The translations under genes were made by a program, and so were the position numbers. Shown piece by piece: positions 13,197 to 19,409 of a DNA stretch of 64,000 bases. Source of the stretch: Methanocaldococcus infernus ME (GTDB lineage Archaea > AGJL01 > Methanococci > Methanococcales > Methanocaldococcaceae); the NCBI RefSeq assembly GCF_000092305.1, contig NC_014122.1, forward strand, positions 1,165,390 to 1,229,389. Direction: 5' to 3'. Within the stretch, counting starts at the first letter, position 1; every line of letters starts with the position of its first letter. The notes under the pieces were generated by a model, which was not told where the DNA came from, did no database searches, and saw only the letters and a program-made list of their open reading frames with translations.

Positions 13197-13733
13197 ATGA
13201 AAAAACTACCGCTAATATTAACAATATCTATTTTCATAATTGGTTTTATTTCAGGAGTTATATCAATAAATAACTTATCAAAAATTAACAATAATAGCTT
13301 ACCTAACTTTAAACCTAAAATACAATTTAATTTTATTTCAATATTAACAAACAACTTAAAAGTTATTCTTCTAATGTTAGCAGGAGCTATAACCTTCGGT
13401 TTATCCACTTTTATAAATCTACTATTCAACGGATTTAACGTAGGCGTTTTAATCGGCTCTACTTTCCTAACTAATGAACCATTAAAATTAATAACTGCCT
13501 TAATCCTTCCACACGGAATATTCGAAATCCCAGCTATGTTAATAGCAGCAATAGCGGGCTTTAAAATCCCTTATGAAATAACCCTATATTTATTAGATAA
13601 AAAAGAAAAACCAATAACAGAGGAAGATATAAAAGAATTCTTAAAATTAGCTTTAATTTCAATAATTCTAATTATTATAGCAGCTTTCGTAGAGGTTTAT
13701 ATCACACCAGAGGTAGCTAAGTTACTTATGTAA
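13197..13733 (+). CDS. SpoIIM/DUF95 membrane protein, array copy 1
   Basis: 178 aa, about five membrane segments. Hallmarks of the SpoIIM/DUF95 family are FGLSTFINLLFNGFNVG and PHGIFEIPAMLIAAIAGFKI. DUF95 proteins recur in circular bacteriocin clusters, where they take part in maturation, export or self-protection. The last 70 codons and the 3' untranslated sequence are nearly identical to the other copies, while the N-terminal half differs from copies 2 and 3 and equals copy 4. It carries haplotype I (TATATTTATTAGATAAAAAA). Starts at GAAACCATG, a wording repeated at other DUF95 starts. Confidence 0.85.
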   Translation: MKKLPLILTISIFIIGFISGVISINNLSKINNNSLPNFKPKIQFNFISILTNNLKVILLMLAGAITFGLSTFINLLFNGFNVGVLIGSTFLTNEPLKLITALILPHGIFEIPAMLIAAIAGFKIPYEITLYLLDKKEKPITEEDIKEFLKLALISIILIIIAAFVEVYITPEVAKLLM

Positions 13734-13830: not shown

Positions 13831-13891
13831 GGTTTTGCATTTATTTTGTTTATGAAAGTGTGTTAAAATACTTTAAAAAATTAAAAAATAG

Positions 13892-13926
13892 TTGGCGATG
13901 ATGCCTCAGTATAGAGGCAGAGCCAA
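13892..13926 (+). promoter_or_regulatory. Kink-turn in the 5' leader of precursor A
   Basis: C-helix UUGGC/GCCAA (13892-13896 with 13922-13926), three-base bulge GAU, tandem GA opposite GA, NC-helix UGCCUC/GAGGCA and loop AGUAUA. This is a textbook simple kink-turn, the binding site of archaeal L7Ae. Here the upstream ORF is shortened to four codons. Confidence 0.75.
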
Positions 13927-13961
13927 TAAGAGTAGTAGAACCACTATGTAAGGGTGGCAAA

Positions 13962-14225
13962 ATGAATATATCCAAAAGCAACATACTTAAAGGTTTCGCT
14001 GCTGTGGCTATGCTTTGCATGATAGGAGCTTTAGTAGCTGAGCCAGTGGCTTTGGGAGATATTGGTCAAGTATATATGACATGGAATATCGATAAAGAGT
14101 ATGGTCAGAGACTATTTAATGCTGGAACAATATTAACTACTGCTGGAGGTTTAGCAATAGGTACTGGAATTGGAGCAGAAGTGGGATTAATTATTGGGGC
14201 CACAGGAGTGATTACCATGGCGTAA
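13962..14225 (+). CDS. Precursor peptide A (leader + hydrophobic core)
   Basis: 87 aa. Residues 1-32 are the array leader (MNISKSNILKGFAAVAMLC, then MIGALVAEPVALG), which looks like a secretory signal peptide. The core of about 55 residues begins DIGQVYMTWN and ends in a Gly/Ala/Ile-rich stretch (AIGTGIGAEVGLIIGATG) and Ala. The layout resembles circular bacteriocin precursors such as enterocin AS-48: a hydrophobic leader, and a helical core of roughly 55-75 residues with no need for cysteines. The leader junction is inferred from where identity between copies ends. Confidence 0.72.
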   Translation: MNISKSNILKGFAAVAMLCMIGALVAEPVALGDIGQVYMTWNIDKEYGQRLFNAGTILTTAGGLAIGTGIGAEVGLIIGATGVITMA

Positions 14226-14650: not shown

Positions 14651-14686
14651 TGGCGATGATGAATAGGTAGGAACTATTCGGAGCCA
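14651..14686 (+). promoter_or_regulatory. Divergent kink-turn in the leader of precursor B
   Basis: C-helix UGGC/GCCA, bulge GAU, GA opposite GA, and NC-helix UGAAUAG paired with CUAUUCG (14660-14666 with 14674-14680, closing U-G wobble). The stem sequence differs entirely from the other copies (UGCCUC/GAGGCA) yet pairs fully. That covariation supports a selected RNA structure. Confidence 0.8.
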
Positions 14687-14761: not shown

Positions 14762-14806
14762 CAGAATGAAATATTCAAAAGCAACATACTTAAAGGTTTC
14801 GCTGCT

Positions 14807-15040
14807 GTGGCTATGCTTTGCATGATAGGAGCTGTGTTTGCTGAATCTACAGTGTTAAAAGCATTTGCAGCTGGAGCGGCAGCTGGTTTGGAATTAGCTG
14901 AAGGATCTCCAATGGGCGTCTTAACAGCTGCAGAGGGTATTGGTGTTACTGGTCTTTATTGGGGATTGGCACTTTGTGTAGTGGGTACAGCATGTTTGCC
15001 AGTTACTGCAACTCTATTAGCTATAGGCGCTGCAGCTTAA
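14807..15040 (+). CDS. Precursor peptide B with frameshifted leader
   Basis: 77 aa in the core frame from GTG 14807 (or ATG 14813). The usual leader start is present at ATG 14766, but one base is missing in the fourth codon region, so that frame stops at 14825 after 19 codons. The core frame keeps only the hydrophobic end of the leader (MLCMIGAVFAES). The core is Ala/Gly-rich (FAAGAAAGLELAEG) and ends GAAA. It may be a silenced precursor, or one made from the internal start by re-initiation at the overlap. The later cassette genes are intact. Confidence 0.6.
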   Translation: MAMLCMIGAVFAESTVLKAFAAGAAAGLELAEGSPMGVLTAAEGIGVTGLYWGLALCVVGTACLPVTATLLAIGAAA

Positions 15041-15069: not shown

Positions 15070-15492
15070 ATGGAAGCAACAAATTATATTAAAAATTTGA
15101 AAGATCAATCAATAATTACCATATTATTTTGTAGCCTAATTTATATTTTTAGTTTGGTACTTCTGTCTATTTCTTTTAATTTTATAGTTGCAGTTAATAC
15201 TTTAAACATTATATTTCTATTAGGGGTTGTACTAGGTTATTATGTGGTTAAAAATATTTTAAAATGGGACCTAAAAGAAAGAGAATTTTTAGGGTATTTG
15301 TATTTACCTATGTTATTTTTGCTTCCAATTCTCGCAGTAAGTTCCACTGAATTTTTAAAATTGATTTTTAACATTTCATTATCAAATGAAAAATCTTTAA
15401 TAGTTATGATTTGTTCAGGGATTTGTTTTATTGCAAGTTATTTTATTGGTTTTTGTCTTTATATATTAAAAAATCAAATGAGGAAATTATGA
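15070..15492 (+). CDS. Cassette-specific membrane protein (partner of precursor B)
   Basis: 140 aa with about four membrane segments. ATG 15070 has AGGTGA five bases upstream, which I prefer over GTG 15061. The stop overlaps the DUF95 start (ATGA), so both are translated together. No family recognised. By position it is the immunity or maturation partner of precursor B. Confidence 0.66.
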   Translation: MEATNYIKNLKDQSIITILFCSLIYIFSLVLLSISFNFIVAVNTLNIIFLLGVVLGYYVVKNILKWDLKEREFLGYLYLPMLFLLPILAVSSTEFLKLIFNISLSNEKSLIVMICSGICFIASYFIGFCLYILKNQMRKL

Positions 15493-16013
15493 AATTGTAT
15501 GAAGTCCTTCCCATAGTTTTATTTTTGATATTTTTTGTTTTTGGATACTTTACAAAAATCCCTACATATGATAATACTCCAAACATTGACATAAACACAA
15601 TATTTCCGAACACTTTTTTAGGAATATTATCAAATAACTTAAAAGTTATATTAACAAATTTATCTGGAAGTGTCCTATTTGGATTATCTACTTTTGTCAA
15701 TATGCTCTATAATGGATATATATTGGGTGTTCAAGCCAAGATATTTACTGTTACTTACGGAGTATATTTTGTTTTAATTACTACCATACCCCATTGCATT
15801 TTTGAAATCCCAGCTATGTTAATAGCAGCAATAGCGGGCTTTAAAATCCCTTATGAAATAACCCTCTATCTCTTAGATAGAAAAGAAAAACCAATAACGG
15901 AAGAAGATATAAAAGAATTCTTAAAATTAGCTTTAATTTCAATAATTCTAATTATTATAGCAGCTTTCGTAGAGGTTTATATCACACCAGAGGTAGCTAA
16001 GTTACTTATGTAA
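15489..16013 (+). CDS. SpoIIM/DUF95 membrane protein, array copy 2
   Basis: 174 aa from ATG 15489 (ATGA overlap, GAGG seven bases upstream). The N-terminal half is unlike other copies (TKIPTYDNTPNIDINTIFP, and IPHCIFEIPAM with Cys for Gly). From the shared EIPAMLIAAIAGFKI onward it is nearly identical. It carries haplotype II (CTCTATCTCTTAGATAG), shared with copy 4. The mosaic of a private first half and shared last third points to gene conversion. Confidence 0.84.
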   Translation: MKLYEVLPIVLFLIFFVFGYFTKIPTYDNTPNIDINTIFPNTFLGILSNNLKVILTNLSGSVLFGLSTFVNMLYNGYILGVQAKIFTVTYGVYFVLITTIPHCIFEIPAMLIAAIAGFKIPYEITLYLLDRKEKPITEEDIKEFLKLALISIILIIIAAFVEVYITPEVAKLLM

Positions 16014-16110: not shown

Positions 16111-16131
16111 GGTTTTGCATTTATTTTGTTT

Positions 16132-16215
16132 ATGAAAAATGTGGAAAACAATAGGAACATTAGAAAGTGTGTTAAAATAAAACACTTTAAAAAATTAAAA
16201 AATAGTTGGCGATGA
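16132..16215 (+). CDS. Upstream ORF of 27 codons ending inside the kink-turn
   Basis: ATG 16132 to TGA 16213-16215. The product is 27 residues, rich in Lys, Asn and Arg (MKNVENNRNIRKCV, then KIKHFKKLKNSWR). The ATG is at the predicted transcription start, so it would be read as a leaderless message. Its stop codon is part of the GAUGA bulge strand of the kink-turn. It is identical in two other cassettes. A regulatory role is inferred; a chance ORF is possible because the block is duplicated. Confidence 0.4.
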   Translation: MKNVENNRNIRKCVKIKHFKKLKNSWR

Positions 16216-16241
16216 TGCCTCAGTAATAGAGGCAGAGCCAA
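16206..16241 (+). promoter_or_regulatory. Kink-turn in the 5' leader of precursor C
   Basis: UUGGC (16206) pairs with GCCAA (16237). Bulge GAU, GA opposite GA, stem UGCCUC/GAGGCA, loop AGUAAUA. A second hairpin, CCAC (16256-16259) with GTGG (16269-16272), covers the GGTGG ribosome site of precursor C. Confidence 0.78.
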
Positions 16242-16276
16242 TAAGAGTAGTAGAACCACTATGTAAGGGTGGCAAA

Positions 16277-16573
16277 ATGAATATATTCAAAAGCAACATA
16301 CTTAAAGGTTTCGCTGCTGTGGCTATGCTTTGCATGATAGGAGCTTTAGTAGCTGAGCCAGTGGCTTTAGGGAATTGTGGAAAATATTTGGCAGAAAATG
16401 CGGATAGTGATTTGGTCAAGGCACTTGGTTATGCTTCTCAAGGTGTTGGTGTTGCATCATTAAACGCTGCATATACAGTTGCAGCAGCATCATGGGAACT
16501 TTATTTAGTATGCCCTGAAGCTGCAGTTCCAGTTTTATTAGTTGGTGGTTCAGGAGCCATTCTTTATGCATAA
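16277..16573 (+). CDS. Precursor peptide C (leader + core)
   Basis: 98 aa. The leader is the same as in D and E through AEPVALG. The core of about 66 residues starts NCGKYLAENADSDLVKALGY and ends with GGSGAILYA, and includes one Cys near each of its start and middle (NCGK, LVCPE). It has alternating Ala/Val helical stretches, as expected of a membrane-active helical bundle. The kink-turn leader and promoter precede it. Function as a bacteriocin is inferred from layout. Confidence 0.72.
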   Translation: MNIFKSNILKGFAAVAMLCMIGALVAEPVALGNCGKYLAENADSDLVKALGYASQGVGVASLNAAYTVAAASWELYLVCPEAAVPVLLVGGSGAILYA

Positions 16574-16641
16574 TACAATAACTTTTTCTTTTTAAATTAT
16601 TTTTTACAAATAATGATATATGTAGATTGAATGGTGAAAAT

Positions 16642-16968
16642 ATGAATATTATAATTACAATAATTATAATTTCATTTTCAATATTATTAAGTGTTAAGTT
16701 ATTTTATTCCCTAATGAAAAGTCTAAAAAAAGAGGAAATAAAATTAAAAAATTTTGAGGTCATATACAAATTTGTAATTCCTATTATCTTTGCACTTGTA
16801 GGGGTGGAATATAGCAATAGTATATTTATAAGTACTGGTATTAACTCAAAATCGTTTACTTTGTTTATTTTAGATACGATAGTAGTTATATTAATACTAA
16901 TGATATACCATGTAAGTTTAGCTATACTCTCAAGAATTATACAATCAAAATTAAGTTCAAGTAAGTAA
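16642..16968 (+). CDS. Cassette-specific membrane protein (partner of precursor C)
   Basis: 108 aa, about three to four membrane segments with a Lys/Glu loop (KSLKKEEIKLKNFE). ATG 16642 has GGTGA four bases upstream; a TTG frame from 16627 is less likely. It lies between precursor C and DUF95 copy 3. No family recognised; immunity candidate. Confidence 0.65.
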   Translation: MNIIITIIIISFSILLSVKLFYSLMKSLKKEEIKLKNFEVIYKFVIPIIFALVGVEYSNSIFISTGINSKSFTLFILDTIVVILILMIYHVSLAILSRIIQSKLSSSK

Positions 16969-16990
16969 CTTTTAAATTTAGGGTTAAACT

Positions 16991-17536
16991 ATGCTCAAGT
17001 ATACAAACAATATATTAATTATCTTAGCTGTAATTTTAATCTATATTATTGGGTTTATTAATGGGTATTACACAAACAATAATGAAATAAAGACACTAAA
17101 TAATAATAAATCAAAGTTAAGATTTAATTCTTCATTACCAAAACTTTTATTAAACAACTTAATAGCAGATTTTTTAATGCTGGCAGGTTCTATAACCTTC
17201 GGTTTATCCACTTTTATAAATTTAATATTCAATGGTTTTAATCTTGGGTTATTAGTTTCTAATGCTTATAACAGCGGAATGCCCACAAAATTAATTTTAG
17301 CTTTAATCCTCCCACACGGAATATTTGAAATCCCAGCTATGTTAATAGCAGCAATAGCGGGCTTTAAAATCCCTTATGAAATAACCCTATATTTATTAGA
17401 TAAAAAAGAAAAACCAATAACAGAGGAAGATATAAAAGAATTCTTAAAATTAGCTTTAATTTCAATAATTCTAATTATTATAGCAGCTTTCGTAGAGGTT
17501 TATATCACACCAGAGGTAGCTAAGTTACTTATGTAA
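16991..17536 (+). CDS. SpoIIM/DUF95 membrane protein, array copy 3
   Basis: 181 aa. Private N-terminal part (INGYYTNNNEIKTLNNNKSK), then the shared SITFGLSTFINL and PHGIFEIPAMLIAAIAGFKI. The last third and 3' spacer match copy 1 (haplotype I) rather than its neighbours 2 and 4. Twenty-two bases separate it from the upstream membrane protein. Confidence 0.85.
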   Translation: MLKYTNNILIILAVILIYIIGFINGYYTNNNEIKTLNNNKSKLRFNSSLPKLLLNNLIADFLMLAGSITFGLSTFINLIFNGFNLGLLVSNAYNSGMPTKLILALILPHGIFEIPAMLIAAIAGFKIPYEITLYLLDKKEKPITEEDIKEFLKLALISIILIIIAAFVEVYITPEVAKLLM

Positions 17537-17608
17537 ATCGCTTTACCATTTTATTAATTATTAAAAATCTTAATAGGCAATACATTTCCTTTTTTATACT
17601 TTACTATT

Positions 17609-17635
17609 CGATTTAAATCGTTATATATATATATA
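17609..17635 (+). promoter_or_regulatory. Cassette promoter: palindrome CGATTTAAATCG plus T(TA)7
   Basis: Palindrome at 17609-17620, TATA run at 17621-17635. Drives precursor D. TA repeat number differs from the other cassettes. Confidence 0.75.
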
Positions 17636-17656
17636 GGTTTTGCATTTATTTTGTTT

Positions 17657-17740
17657 ATGAAAAATGTGGAAAACAATAGGAACATTAGAAAGTGTGTTAA
17701 AATAAAACACTTTAAAAAATTAAAAAATAGTTGGCGATGA
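17657..17740 (+). CDS. Upstream ORF of 27 codons ending inside the kink-turn
   Basis: Same ORF as at 16132, ATG 17657 to TGA 17738-17740. Same position relative to TATA run and kink-turn. Regulatory meaning inferred. Confidence 0.4.
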   Translation: MKNVENNRNIRKCVKIKHFKKLKNSWR

Positions 17741-17766
17741 TGCCTCAGTAATAGAGGCAGAGCCAA
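17731..17766 (+). promoter_or_regulatory. Kink-turn in the 5' leader of precursor D
   Basis: Same fold as at 16206: UUGGC/GCCAA, GAU bulge, tandem GA/GA, UGCCUC/GAGGCA with loop AGUAAUA. The CCAC/GTGG hairpin over the ribosome site is also present. Confidence 0.78.
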
Positions 17767-17801
17767 TAAGAGTAGTAGAACCACTATGTAAGGGTGGCAA
17801 A

Positions 17802-18119
17802 ATGAATATATTCAAAAGCAACATACTTAAAGGTTTCGCTGCTGTGGCTATGCTTTGCATGATAGGAGCTTTAGTAGCTGAGCCAGTGGCTTTGGGAGAT
17901 ATATCAGCTTACTATTTGTATAAACACTCAAAAAATGGAGATTACTATAATGCTGGTCAGGATGCAGTAGTATTATATGGGGCTGGTGAAACAATAGCAA
18001 AAGGGGTAGGTTATTTAGCATTAGTTTCCGAAACTGGTGCTGAAGCAGGTTTATTGGCAGCAGGTGTAGCAACTGGTGGAGTAGCTTTAATTGCTATTGG
18101 AATTGGTGTAGCGGCTTAA
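17802..18119 (+). CDS. Precursor peptide D (leader + core)
   Basis: 105 aa. Leader of 32 residues, then a core of about 73 residues starting DISAYYLYKHSKNGDYYNAG and ending in a strongly Ala/Gly/Val-rich helix (GLLAAGVATGGVALIAIG) and Ala. The core start resembles the broken precursor at 12548 (DIGAAYY), so these two are probably relatives. No cysteine in the core. Similar in size to enterocin AS-48 (70 residues). Confidence 0.73.
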   Translation: MNIFKSNILKGFAAVAMLCMIGALVAEPVALGDISAYYLYKHSKNGDYYNAGQDAVVLYGAGETIAKGVGYLALVSETGAEAGLLAAGVATGGVALIAIGIGVAA

Positions 18120-18181
18120 TCTTACAATTTATATAAATTTTAATTTTTTAAATATATATTTTTCCTTTATTGGGGGAAACT

Positions 18182-18361
18182 ATGAACAACAATAAAAAAA
18201 CATATCGTAAATTATATTGGCATATTTGGTATATACTATTTGGAATCCTCCTTATATTAATGTTTAATTTAGAACCTCCGTATAAAACATGGATTATAGG
18301 ATTATTGGTCATCATGGCTTTATCAAGGATAATAATATTATGGATTGATATCGATAAATAA
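18182..18361 (+). CDS. Small two-segment membrane protein (partner of precursor D)
   Basis: 59 aa from ATG 18182, preceded by a GGGGG run that could act as ribosome site. Basic N-terminus (NNNKKTYRK) and two hydrophobic segments. Its last codons (WIDIDK) overlap the start of DUF95 copy 4, at what looks like a recombination joint. Immunity candidate for precursor D. Confidence 0.62.
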   Translation: MNNNKKTYRKLYWHIWYILFGILLILMFNLEPPYKTWIIGLLVIMALSRIIILWIDIDK

Positions 18362-18821
18362 CTTATCAAAAATTAACAATAATAGCTTACCTAACTTTAA
18401 ACCTAAAATACAATTTAATTTTATTTCAATATTAACAAACAACTTAAAAGTTATTCTTCTAATGTTAGCAGGAGCTATAACCTTCGGTTTATCCACTTTT
18501 ATAAATCTACTATTCAACGGATTTAACGTAGGCGTTTTAATCGGCTCTACTTTCCTAACTAATGAACCATTAAAATTAATAACTGCCTTAATCCTTCCAC
18601 ACGGAATATTCGAAATCCCAGCTATGTTAATAGCAGCAATAGCGGGCTTTAAAATCCCTTATGAAATAACCCTCTATCTCTTAGATAGAAAAGAAAAACC
18701 AATAACGGAAGAAGATATAAAAGAATTCTTAAAATTAGCTTTAATTTCAATAATATTAATCATTATAGCAGCTTTCGTAGAGGTTTATATCACACCAGAG
18801 GTAGCTAAGTTACTTATGTAA
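18345..18821 (+). CDS. SpoIIM/DUF95 membrane protein, array copy 4, N-terminally truncated
   Basis: 158 aa from TTG 18345. From SINNLSKINNNSLPNFKPK it equals copy 1 at the DNA level, but the first membrane segment (about 20 residues) is missing and the preceding gene runs into it. The last third carries haplotype II, like copy 2, so the gene is a mosaic. The family motifs remain. Whether it is translated (TTG start inside another gene, 17-base overlap) or works without the first segment is unclear. Confidence 0.75.
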   Translation: MISINNLSKINNNSLPNFKPKIQFNFISILTNNLKVILLMLAGAITFGLSTFINLLFNGFNVGVLIGSTFLTNEPLKLITALILPHGIFEIPAMLIAAIAGFKIPYEITLYLLDRKEKPITEEDIKEFLKLALISIILIIIAAFVEVYITPEVAKLLM

Positions 18822-18893
18822 ATCGCTTTACCATTTTATTAATTATTAAAAATCTTAATAAACAATACATTTCCTTTTTTATACTTTACTATT

Positions 18894-18922
18894 CGATTTA
18901 AATCGTTATATATATATATATA
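18894..18922 (+). promoter_or_regulatory. Cassette promoter: palindrome CGATTTAAATCG plus T(TA)8
   Basis: Palindrome at 18894-18905, TATA run at 18906-18922. Drives precursor E. Confidence 0.75.
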
Positions 18923-18943
18923 GGTTTTGCATTTATTTTGTTT

Positions 18944-19027
18944 ATGAAAAATGTGGAAAACAATAGGAACATTAGAAAGTGTGTTAAAATAAAACACTTT
19001 AAAAAATTAAAAAATAGTTGGCGATGA
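18944..19027 (+). CDS. Upstream ORF of 27 codons ending inside the kink-turn
   Basis: Third intact copy of the upstream ORF, ATG 18944 to TGA 19025-19027, as at 16132 and 17657. Confidence 0.4.
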   Translation: MKNVENNRNIRKCVKIKHFKKLKNSWR

Positions 19028-19053
19028 TGCCTCAGTAATAGAGGCAGAGCCAA
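19018..19053 (+). promoter_or_regulatory. Kink-turn in the 5' leader of precursor E
   Basis: Identical fold and sequence to that at 16206. The CCAC/GTGG hairpin over the ribosome site follows before ATG 19089. Confidence 0.78.
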
Positions 19054-19088
19054 TAAGAGTAGTAGAACCACTATGTAAGGGTGGCAAA

Positions 19089-19409
19089 ATGAATATATTC
19101 AAAAGCAACATACTTAAAGGTTTCGCTGCTGTGGCTATGCTTTGCATGATAGGAGCTTTAGTAGCTGAGCCAGTGGCTTTGGGAGATATTTCATGGGCAG
19201 CAACATGGGTTGTAAATAATATTATGCATAATTCTGTAAGTGGAGATGCACAATATGATACTATTGTAACTTCTACTGGAGCATTAGCAGCTTACGGATT
19301 TAAAAATGGGATTAGATTTGCAGTAAGGGGAGTAGTAATTGGAGCCTCTGCGGGTCCTGAAGGCGCTATAGCAGGTGCTGTTTTAGGATTTGCTGCTGGA
19401 GTTGCATAA
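19089..19409 (+). CDS. Precursor peptide E (leader + core)
   Basis: 106 aa. Standard 32-residue leader. The core of about 74 residues starts DISWAATWVVNNIMHNSVSG and ends GAVLGFAAGVA. It carries two Arg in the middle (GIRFAVRGVVIG), giving a cationic patch as in many circular bacteriocins. It shares only the residues next to the leader with the other cores. Inferred secreted peptide. Confidence 0.72.
   Translation: MNIFKSNILKGFAAVAMLCMIGALVAEPVALGDISWAATWVVNNIMHNSVSGDAQYDTIVTSTGALAAYGFKNGIRFAVRGVVIGASAGPEGAIAGAVLGFAAGVA

Follow-up and report, generated by a model that had tools for sequence, protein, structure and literature searches.

Introduction

L7Ae is the universal archaeal kink-turn (k-turn) protein of the ribosome, of the C/D and H/ACA sRNPs, and of RNase P. 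To our knowledge, only a small number of structured cis-regulatory RNAs have been established for archaea, and L7Ae control outside the l7ae gene rests so far on single mRNAs. Among the closest described systems is the 5′ leader of l7ae itself, in which a k-turn or k-loop with a GAU bulge and tandem G·A pairs lies near the Shine-Dalgarno (SD) sequence (Daume et al. 2017, PMC5539422; Huang, Ashraf and Lilley 2019, PMC6298567). These leaders are thought to need protein for folding and have their SD within or beside the k-turn (PMC6298567), and the l7ae leader of M. maripaludis responds to L7Ae (PMC5539422). L7Ae also lowers expression through k-turns in the leader or coding region of some mRNAs other than l7ae; in S. 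acidocaldarius, k-turns of the saci_1468 and saci_2027 mRNAs allow a reporter to be lowered by L7Ae (PMC5539422).

Here we describe a family of peptide gene leaders that resembles these systems in its k-turn and differs from them in several respects. Compared to the l7ae leader, the peptide leaders serve secreted peptide genes and not the l7ae mRNA, their SD lies in a hairpin of its own, and the k-turns are often two. They also have a C-helix of mostly 3-9 bp with C:G at position -1, a mostly predicted protein-free folding, and family-wide covariation. A copy of the l7ae autoregulatory leader was ruled out, given that the k-turn does not contain the SD and that protein-free folding is predicted for most units. 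Whereas saci_1468 and saci_2027 are single unrelated genes, the peptide leaders form a conserved family. The terminal k-turn of archaeal box C/D sRNAs (sR39, RF01122; sR3, RF01133) has the same core, RUGAUGA..GA with L3=U; in contrast to these sRNAs, the peptide leaders have neither a guide nor C′/D′ boxes, close with a short loop, and lie within an mRNA. Archaeal SECIS elements likewise place a k-turn-like internal loop in methanogen mRNA UTRs (PMC11881835), but their motif is GAA opposite A, whereas the peptide leaders have GAU-GA/GA and precede non-selenoprotein genes. A SECIS identity was ruled out by this GAU-GA/GA internal loop and by genes A, C, D, and E, which are uninterrupted ORFs from the ATG.

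With respect to gene content, the closest accounts concern the arCOG01996 (SpoIIM/DUF95)-Yip1-SalXY loci (Makarova et al. 2014/2015, PMC4158269, PMC5898192). In the available excerpts of these accounts, the same neighborhood is described with an MJ0796-type ABC transporter, the locus type is termed membrane 'dark matter' and includes a SalXY-like transporter, and neither the common leader of the precursors nor an RNA element is mentioned. K-turns as such, the way L7Ae recognizes them, and archaeal leader control are known already. The leader family, its regulon, and its layout did not turn up in Rfam or in the open-access full-text literature searched.

Results

Peptide genes and their leaders

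The window, that is, the whole stretch of DNA analyzed, covers 64 kb (positions 1165390-1229389, forward strand) of the 1,328,194-base genome of Methanocaldococcus infernus. Between 13.1 and 24 kb of the window lie five short secreted precursor genes (copies A-E), with all their k-turns on the + strand. Their neighbors encode SpoIIM/DUF95 and small membrane proteins, followed by a Yip1 protein and an ABC exporter. The features are as follows (NC, non-canonical helix):

13197..13733, + strand: SpoIIM/DUF95 membrane protein of the peptide cassette (PF01944)
13891..13927, + strand: k-turn of the copy A leader, GUUGGC/GCCAAU, GAU, GA/GA, NC UGCCUC/GAGGCA; 53.5 bits
13941..13957, + strand: SD-sequestering hairpin of copy A, CCACU/GGUGG; sequence identical in copy E
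13962..14225, + strand: precursor peptide A, 87 aa
14651..14686, + strand: k-turn K1 of divergent copy B, UGGC/GCCA, GAU, GA/GA, NC UGAAUAG/CUAUUCG; 43.1 bits
14694..14724, + strand: tandem k-turn K2 of copy B, decayed, C-helix GAC/GCC, A and not G at 2n; 34.1 bits
14746..14761, + strand: SD hairpin of copy B, UCACU/AGUGA; arms unlike those of the other copies
14766..15040, + strand: precursor peptide B, leader peptide frameshifted (1 nt, after ATG)
15411-16013, 16991-17536, and 18345-18821: further SpoIIM/DUF95 copies (PF01944)
16205..16242, + strand: k-turn of the copy C leader (covariance model and generic k-turn scan)
16256..16272, + strand: SD hairpin of copy C, sequence as in copy A
16277..16573, + strand: precursor peptide C, 98 aa
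17730..17767, + strand: k-turn of the copy D leader (covariance model and generic k-turn scan)
17781..17797, + strand: SD hairpin of copy D
17802..18119, + strand: precursor peptide D, 105 aa
19017..19054, + strand: k-turn of the copy E leader (covariance model and generic k-turn scan)
19068..19084, + strand: SD hairpin of copy E
19089..19409, + strand: precursor peptide E, 106 aa
22191-22880: ATPase of the ABC exporter, orthologue of MJ0796 (solved structures PDB 1f3o, 1l2t)

The precursors have a common signal-peptide cassette (...KGFAAVAMLCMIGALVAEP) and mutually dissimilar mature parts. Copies C, D, and E (window 16120-19183) share one sequence (100% identity) in at least the 150 nt preceding the ATG, remain 97.9-100% identical over the signal peptide, and fall to background identity past it. 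They represent a constant 5′ cassette with swapped downstream parts, probably kept uniform by gene conversion. The precursor peptides gave no convincing match in Pfam, NCBIfam, or PADLOC and fall in no curated bacteriocin family; the SpoIIM/DUF95 and ABC neighbors are the only features to suggest that they are circular bacteriocins. The MJ0796-type ABC transporter may have these precursor peptides as its substrate.

A standard k-turn, with a C-helix, a 3-nt bulge with L3=U, tandem G·A/A·G pairs, and an NC helix, is present in each of the five leaders, as the first-pass annotation had proposed. For the divergent copy at 14651, the UGGC/GCCA pairing, the GAU bulge, the GA/GA pairs, and the wholly different NC stem UGAAUAG/CUAUUCG are all borne out by the sequence. 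Its C-helix is indeed kept, but with 4 bp and not 5, the outermost C14650 standing opposite the A after GCCA as a C·A. The covariation proposed among the five leaders holds insofar as the NC stem of copy B differs from the others and yet pairs. However, the window offers a single independent comparison, because four of its leaders are near-identical: copies A, C, D, and E are 98.6-100% identical across the last 72 nt before the ATG, against about 58-60%, the background level, between copy B and these four. A lone hairpin that fits a loose k-turn rule is unremarkable, since this rule has 7 matches on both strands of the 64-kb window versus 2.9 in shuffles; what stands out against chance is that five k-turns occupy one and the same position ahead of paralogous genes.

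Two kinds of feature go beyond the earlier annotation, namely the SD hairpins and the second k-turn of copy B. The latter, K2, contains a box-C/D-like GUGAUGA and has an intact counterpart in Methanothermococcus-type leaders. The tandem architecture is common to copy B and the leaders of the second peptide family (f2). Copy B is also one base short just after the ATG, with ATGAA-ATATTC in place of ATGAATATATTC (window 14766-14810), and owing to this 1-nt loss its signal peptide is out of frame with the remaining ORF. Together with the decayed K2, the frameshift suggests a failing gene, or else a sequencing error.

Covariation across genomes

The pattern GGCGATGAN{9,34}GAGCC has 50 matches in 36 genomes of the order (the phylum-level search set consists of the same 36 genomes), compared to 1 for a reversed-pattern control. 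Two of the 50 are false, both within other coding regions. The genome of the window contains exactly 5, all at these peptide genes.

From these genomes, 44 distinct k-turn units were parsed, with the bulge GAU in 39 and UGU in 5. The core is nearly invariant: L3=U and G1b-A are found in 44/44 units and G2n-A in 43/44, the decayed K2 of copy B being the single exception. The C-helix is mostly 3-9 bp long with C:G at -1 (-1b:-1n is C:G in 42/44), and the NC helix has 4-8 bp closed by a loop of 4-8 nt. At least 9 unrelated NC helix sequences occur, all of them fully complementary. In an alignment of 41 distinct units, 91% of the cells are paired, and in three of the four NC pairs both partners change while the number of unpaired cells stays at 0. 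Covariation scores 0.427, versus 0.180 in shuffles (0/500) and at most 0.168 with slid partners; the sequences are related, so the shuffle counts are not probabilities, while the slid-partner controls retain the relatedness. The outer C-helix is less regular, with 85% of cells paired and C·A and U·U at -4/-5. The k-turn fold of the leader family is thus demonstrated by covariation.

According to the rules of PMC6298567, ions should be sufficient for the folding of the 31/44 units that have 3b=C or 3n=G. The 3b:3n pair is Watson-Crick in 5/44, including the four similar window copies, and U·U in 8/44; units of these two kinds are predicted not to fold in ions alone, or are not favored by the rule.

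Distribution of the leader family

A search of 41 genomes for peptide homologues identified them in 16, in two families. A k-turn precedes nearly every homologue that has an intact upstream region. One clear exception is a natural loss of the element: in genome G028 (L050 5300-5340, complement) its second half is deleted and the first half of the k-turn, with GCGATGATGAAC, is fused to the coding region. In a second exception (gene L040, 4290), there is neither a k-turn nor an ATG.

A covariance model gave 56 matches at E<=5e-5 in 15 Methanocaldococcus/Methanothermococcus-type genomes of the order, and only two more outside the order among 394 archaeal genomes, at E about 1e-4. The k-turn shared by a peptide gene family, which the first-pass annotation had put forward together with a search for covarying homologues elsewhere, is therefore strongly supported and extends to 15 genomes with covariation. 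The other matches at E<=5e-4 in the 394 archaeal genomes are longer-spanned than the leaders. Among the weaker matches that were inspected, Rfam gathering scores assign three to sR39 and one to sR3; the two outside the order are C/D-like and fall under the Rfam thresholds. The model hence cross-reacts first with the best-known L7Ae ligands, the box C/D sRNAs. In the window as a whole, Rfam has no match at the gathering threshold, and at E<=5 the region has only weak, unrelated matches.

By the peptide and pattern searches, Methanococcus-type genomes have neither the peptides nor the GGCGATGA pattern. A contig search returned only four named records, all of the same lineage (Methanocaldococcus, Methanothermococcus); viral contigs gave one weak peptide match lacking a k-turn, and plasmids gave no matches. 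Nearly every gene that follows a k-turn encodes either a precursor or a larger secreted protein (241-387 aa) whose signal-peptide cassette is of the same kind. These genes probably form an unrecognized group controlled at the RNA level, as proposed from the conserved k-turn, often doubled, and the SD-hiding hairpin that follows it.

A leader of another family (f2; L041 3450-3594, genome G024) shares long upstream DNA with window 18925-19089, which suggests, at the level of sequence, horizontal exchange of the cassette. In two genomes (L081 3424-3620; L082 4602, complement), a k-turn with NC helix GCUUCU/AGAAGC precedes a 196-aa protein, MGSFALWYFGYDYKYEKRF..., that has no signal-peptide cassette.

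The Shine-Dalgarno hairpin

About 26-45 nt separate the end of the last k-turn core from the AUG. The SD is not part of the k-turn, whose end is roughly 20 nt upstream of it; instead, a separate hairpin between k-turn and AUG usually pairs the SD. The arms are CCACU/GGUGG in copies A, C, D, and E and UCACU/AGUGA in B, and elsewhere CCACC/GGUGG, CACC/GGUG, or CUCCUU/AAGGAG. A strong SD hairpin is found in 21/32 distinct leaders, compared to a mean of 8.1 (maximum 15) in 500 shuffles of the stretch that precedes the SD. This corresponds to 66% of leaders versus 17% of 271 control genes (p=3e-8, an optimistic value because the leaders are related). A weaker test, based on minimum-energy folds of the whole segment, counted 133 paired SD positions versus 117.5 (sd 6.9) in shuffles. 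The minimum free energy of the leader is significant for copy E (z -3.92) and not for copy B (z -1.25).

The SD hairpins of the window copies are calculated to be closed at 37-65 °C. At 85 °C, by extrapolation of 37 °C energy parameters, the open-chain probability is 0.6-0.86 in three examples including window copies, and 0.19-0.23 in two other leaders.

A switch in which the 5′ NC strand competes for the SD was also considered. GCCUC fits some SDs, but GAAUAG and GAACAU cannot pair in this way, and such a switch is not general.

Discussion

Starting from the RNA structure and the regulon, which are observed, we infer a binder, a sign of effect, a signal, and a mechanism. Post-transcriptional control by L7Ae, put forward in the first-pass annotation, is the reading we favor: it is reasonably probable that these leaders are a docking site for L7Ae or a paralogue, which alters, probably lowers, the expression of the conflict regulon. 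L7Ae, or a paralogue such as L30e, would bind the leader k-turn(s) when free in the cell, and the resulting RNP beside the ribosome-binding site would change expression, most likely by lowering translation or, alternatively, by shielding the mRNA 5′ end. Peptide production would in this way be coupled to the balance between L7Ae and its rRNA and sRNA ligands.

L7Ae docking is favored because the conserved core is a protein-type k-turn, with L3=U and both sheared G·A pairs near-invariant over the 44 units, because it has no ligand pocket, and because an SD hairpin adjoins it. The next-best matches of the covariance model, box C/D sRNAs, are RNAs built on L7Ae k-turns, which also supports it. 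Two further reasons are that L7Ae represses its own and some other mRNAs through k-turns (PMC5539422) and that related genomes carry a k-loop of the same type, CCAC-GAU-GA-UAC-GA-GUGG, before l7ae. Simple occlusion of the SD is not obvious, since the SD is some 20 nt away from the k-turn, and with 31/44 units predicted to fold in ions alone, the units need not be protein-induced switches. The SD hairpin of the window copies, calculated to be mostly open at 85 °C, counts against L7Ae docking, and so does the l7ae leader of M. infernus itself, in which no k-turn is seen.

A broader formulation is offered more tentatively: a Methanococcales-wide regulon in which L7Ae or L30e on one or two k-turns would set the translation of secreted antimicrobial-like peptides and proteins and link conflict to ribosome and guide-RNP assembly. 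The mechanism, with preformed and often tandem k-turns and a hairpin of its own for the SD, would be unlike l7ae autoregulation. If true, microbial conflict would be tied to the state of that assembly.

The main rival is a role in stability or architecture, which we judge unlikely. Preformed k-turn(s), with or without L7Ae, would guard the mRNA 5′ end from 5′-3′ decay or shape the leader, with nothing being sensed. Most units do bear the ion-folding signature (-1b:-1n = C:G with 3n=G or 3b=C), the long C and NC helices of several units are calculated to stay paired at 85 °C, tandem copies add stability, and the SD is not inside the k-turn. However, ordinary GC-rich hairpins would suffice for such a role, so that the invariant L3=U and G·A core would be unneeded, and some units have a Watson-Crick (5/44) or U·U (8/44) 3b:3n pair.

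It is improbable that the leader is a temperature gate, with an SD hairpin that opens at growth temperature and shuts on cooling and the k-turn as its scaffold. The window-copy hairpins fit this idea, being calculated to stay closed from 37 to 65 °C and to open for the most part at 85 °C, but the calculation depends on parameters extrapolated from 37 °C; two other leaders stay mostly closed, and the near-invariant k-turn and its doubling would be left unexplained.

Several known riboswitches contain k-turns (PMC4316175), and a 'riboswitch-like' element had been suggested in the first-pass annotation. We find no support for a small-molecule element, conservation being confined to the k-turn core, which makes a metabolite riboswitch built on the k-turn very improbable. 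Neither the length nor the sequence of the loops and NC helices is constant, which leaves no candidate binding pocket, no conservation is seen beyond the k-turn core and the SD hairpin, and Rfam has no match at its gathering threshold.

Processing of a box C/D or other guide sRNA out of the leader is scarcely plausible: K2 does contain exact matches to box C (GUGAUGA) and box D (CUGA) and the model cross-matches C/D sRNAs, but a stem of 4-8 bp, paired throughout, and a 4-8 nt loop connect the C and D strands, and guide segments, C′/D′ boxes, and an Rfam match are all lacking. A DNA-level inverted repeat (an operator or recombination site), or a chance hairpin spread by recent duplication, would agree with the near-identity of four window copies and the apparent horizontal exchange of cassettes, yet it is hardly credible and is disfavored by covariation, since unrelated stems remain paired between genomes with the unpaired GAU/GA/GA retained, at a fixed position just 5′ of the start, and the reversed-pattern control gives 1 match against 50.

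With more than 50 covarying members, a clear regulon, leaders that naturally carry one k-turn or two, and some members in partial decay, the leader family makes the question of whether L7Ae controls mRNA regulons directly testable with available proteins. It also offers a way into the MJ0796-type locus, an archaeal peptide/transporter system that has been predicted but not studied.

A separate observation concerns the l7ae leaders of Methanocaldococcus relatives (L096, about 1425-1490; L092, L103, and L115), which contain a k-loop and/or a hairpin, GGGCAAU..CCUCC..AUUGCCC. The loop of this hairpin is complementary to the SD GGAGG, and the genome of the window retains the hairpin only.
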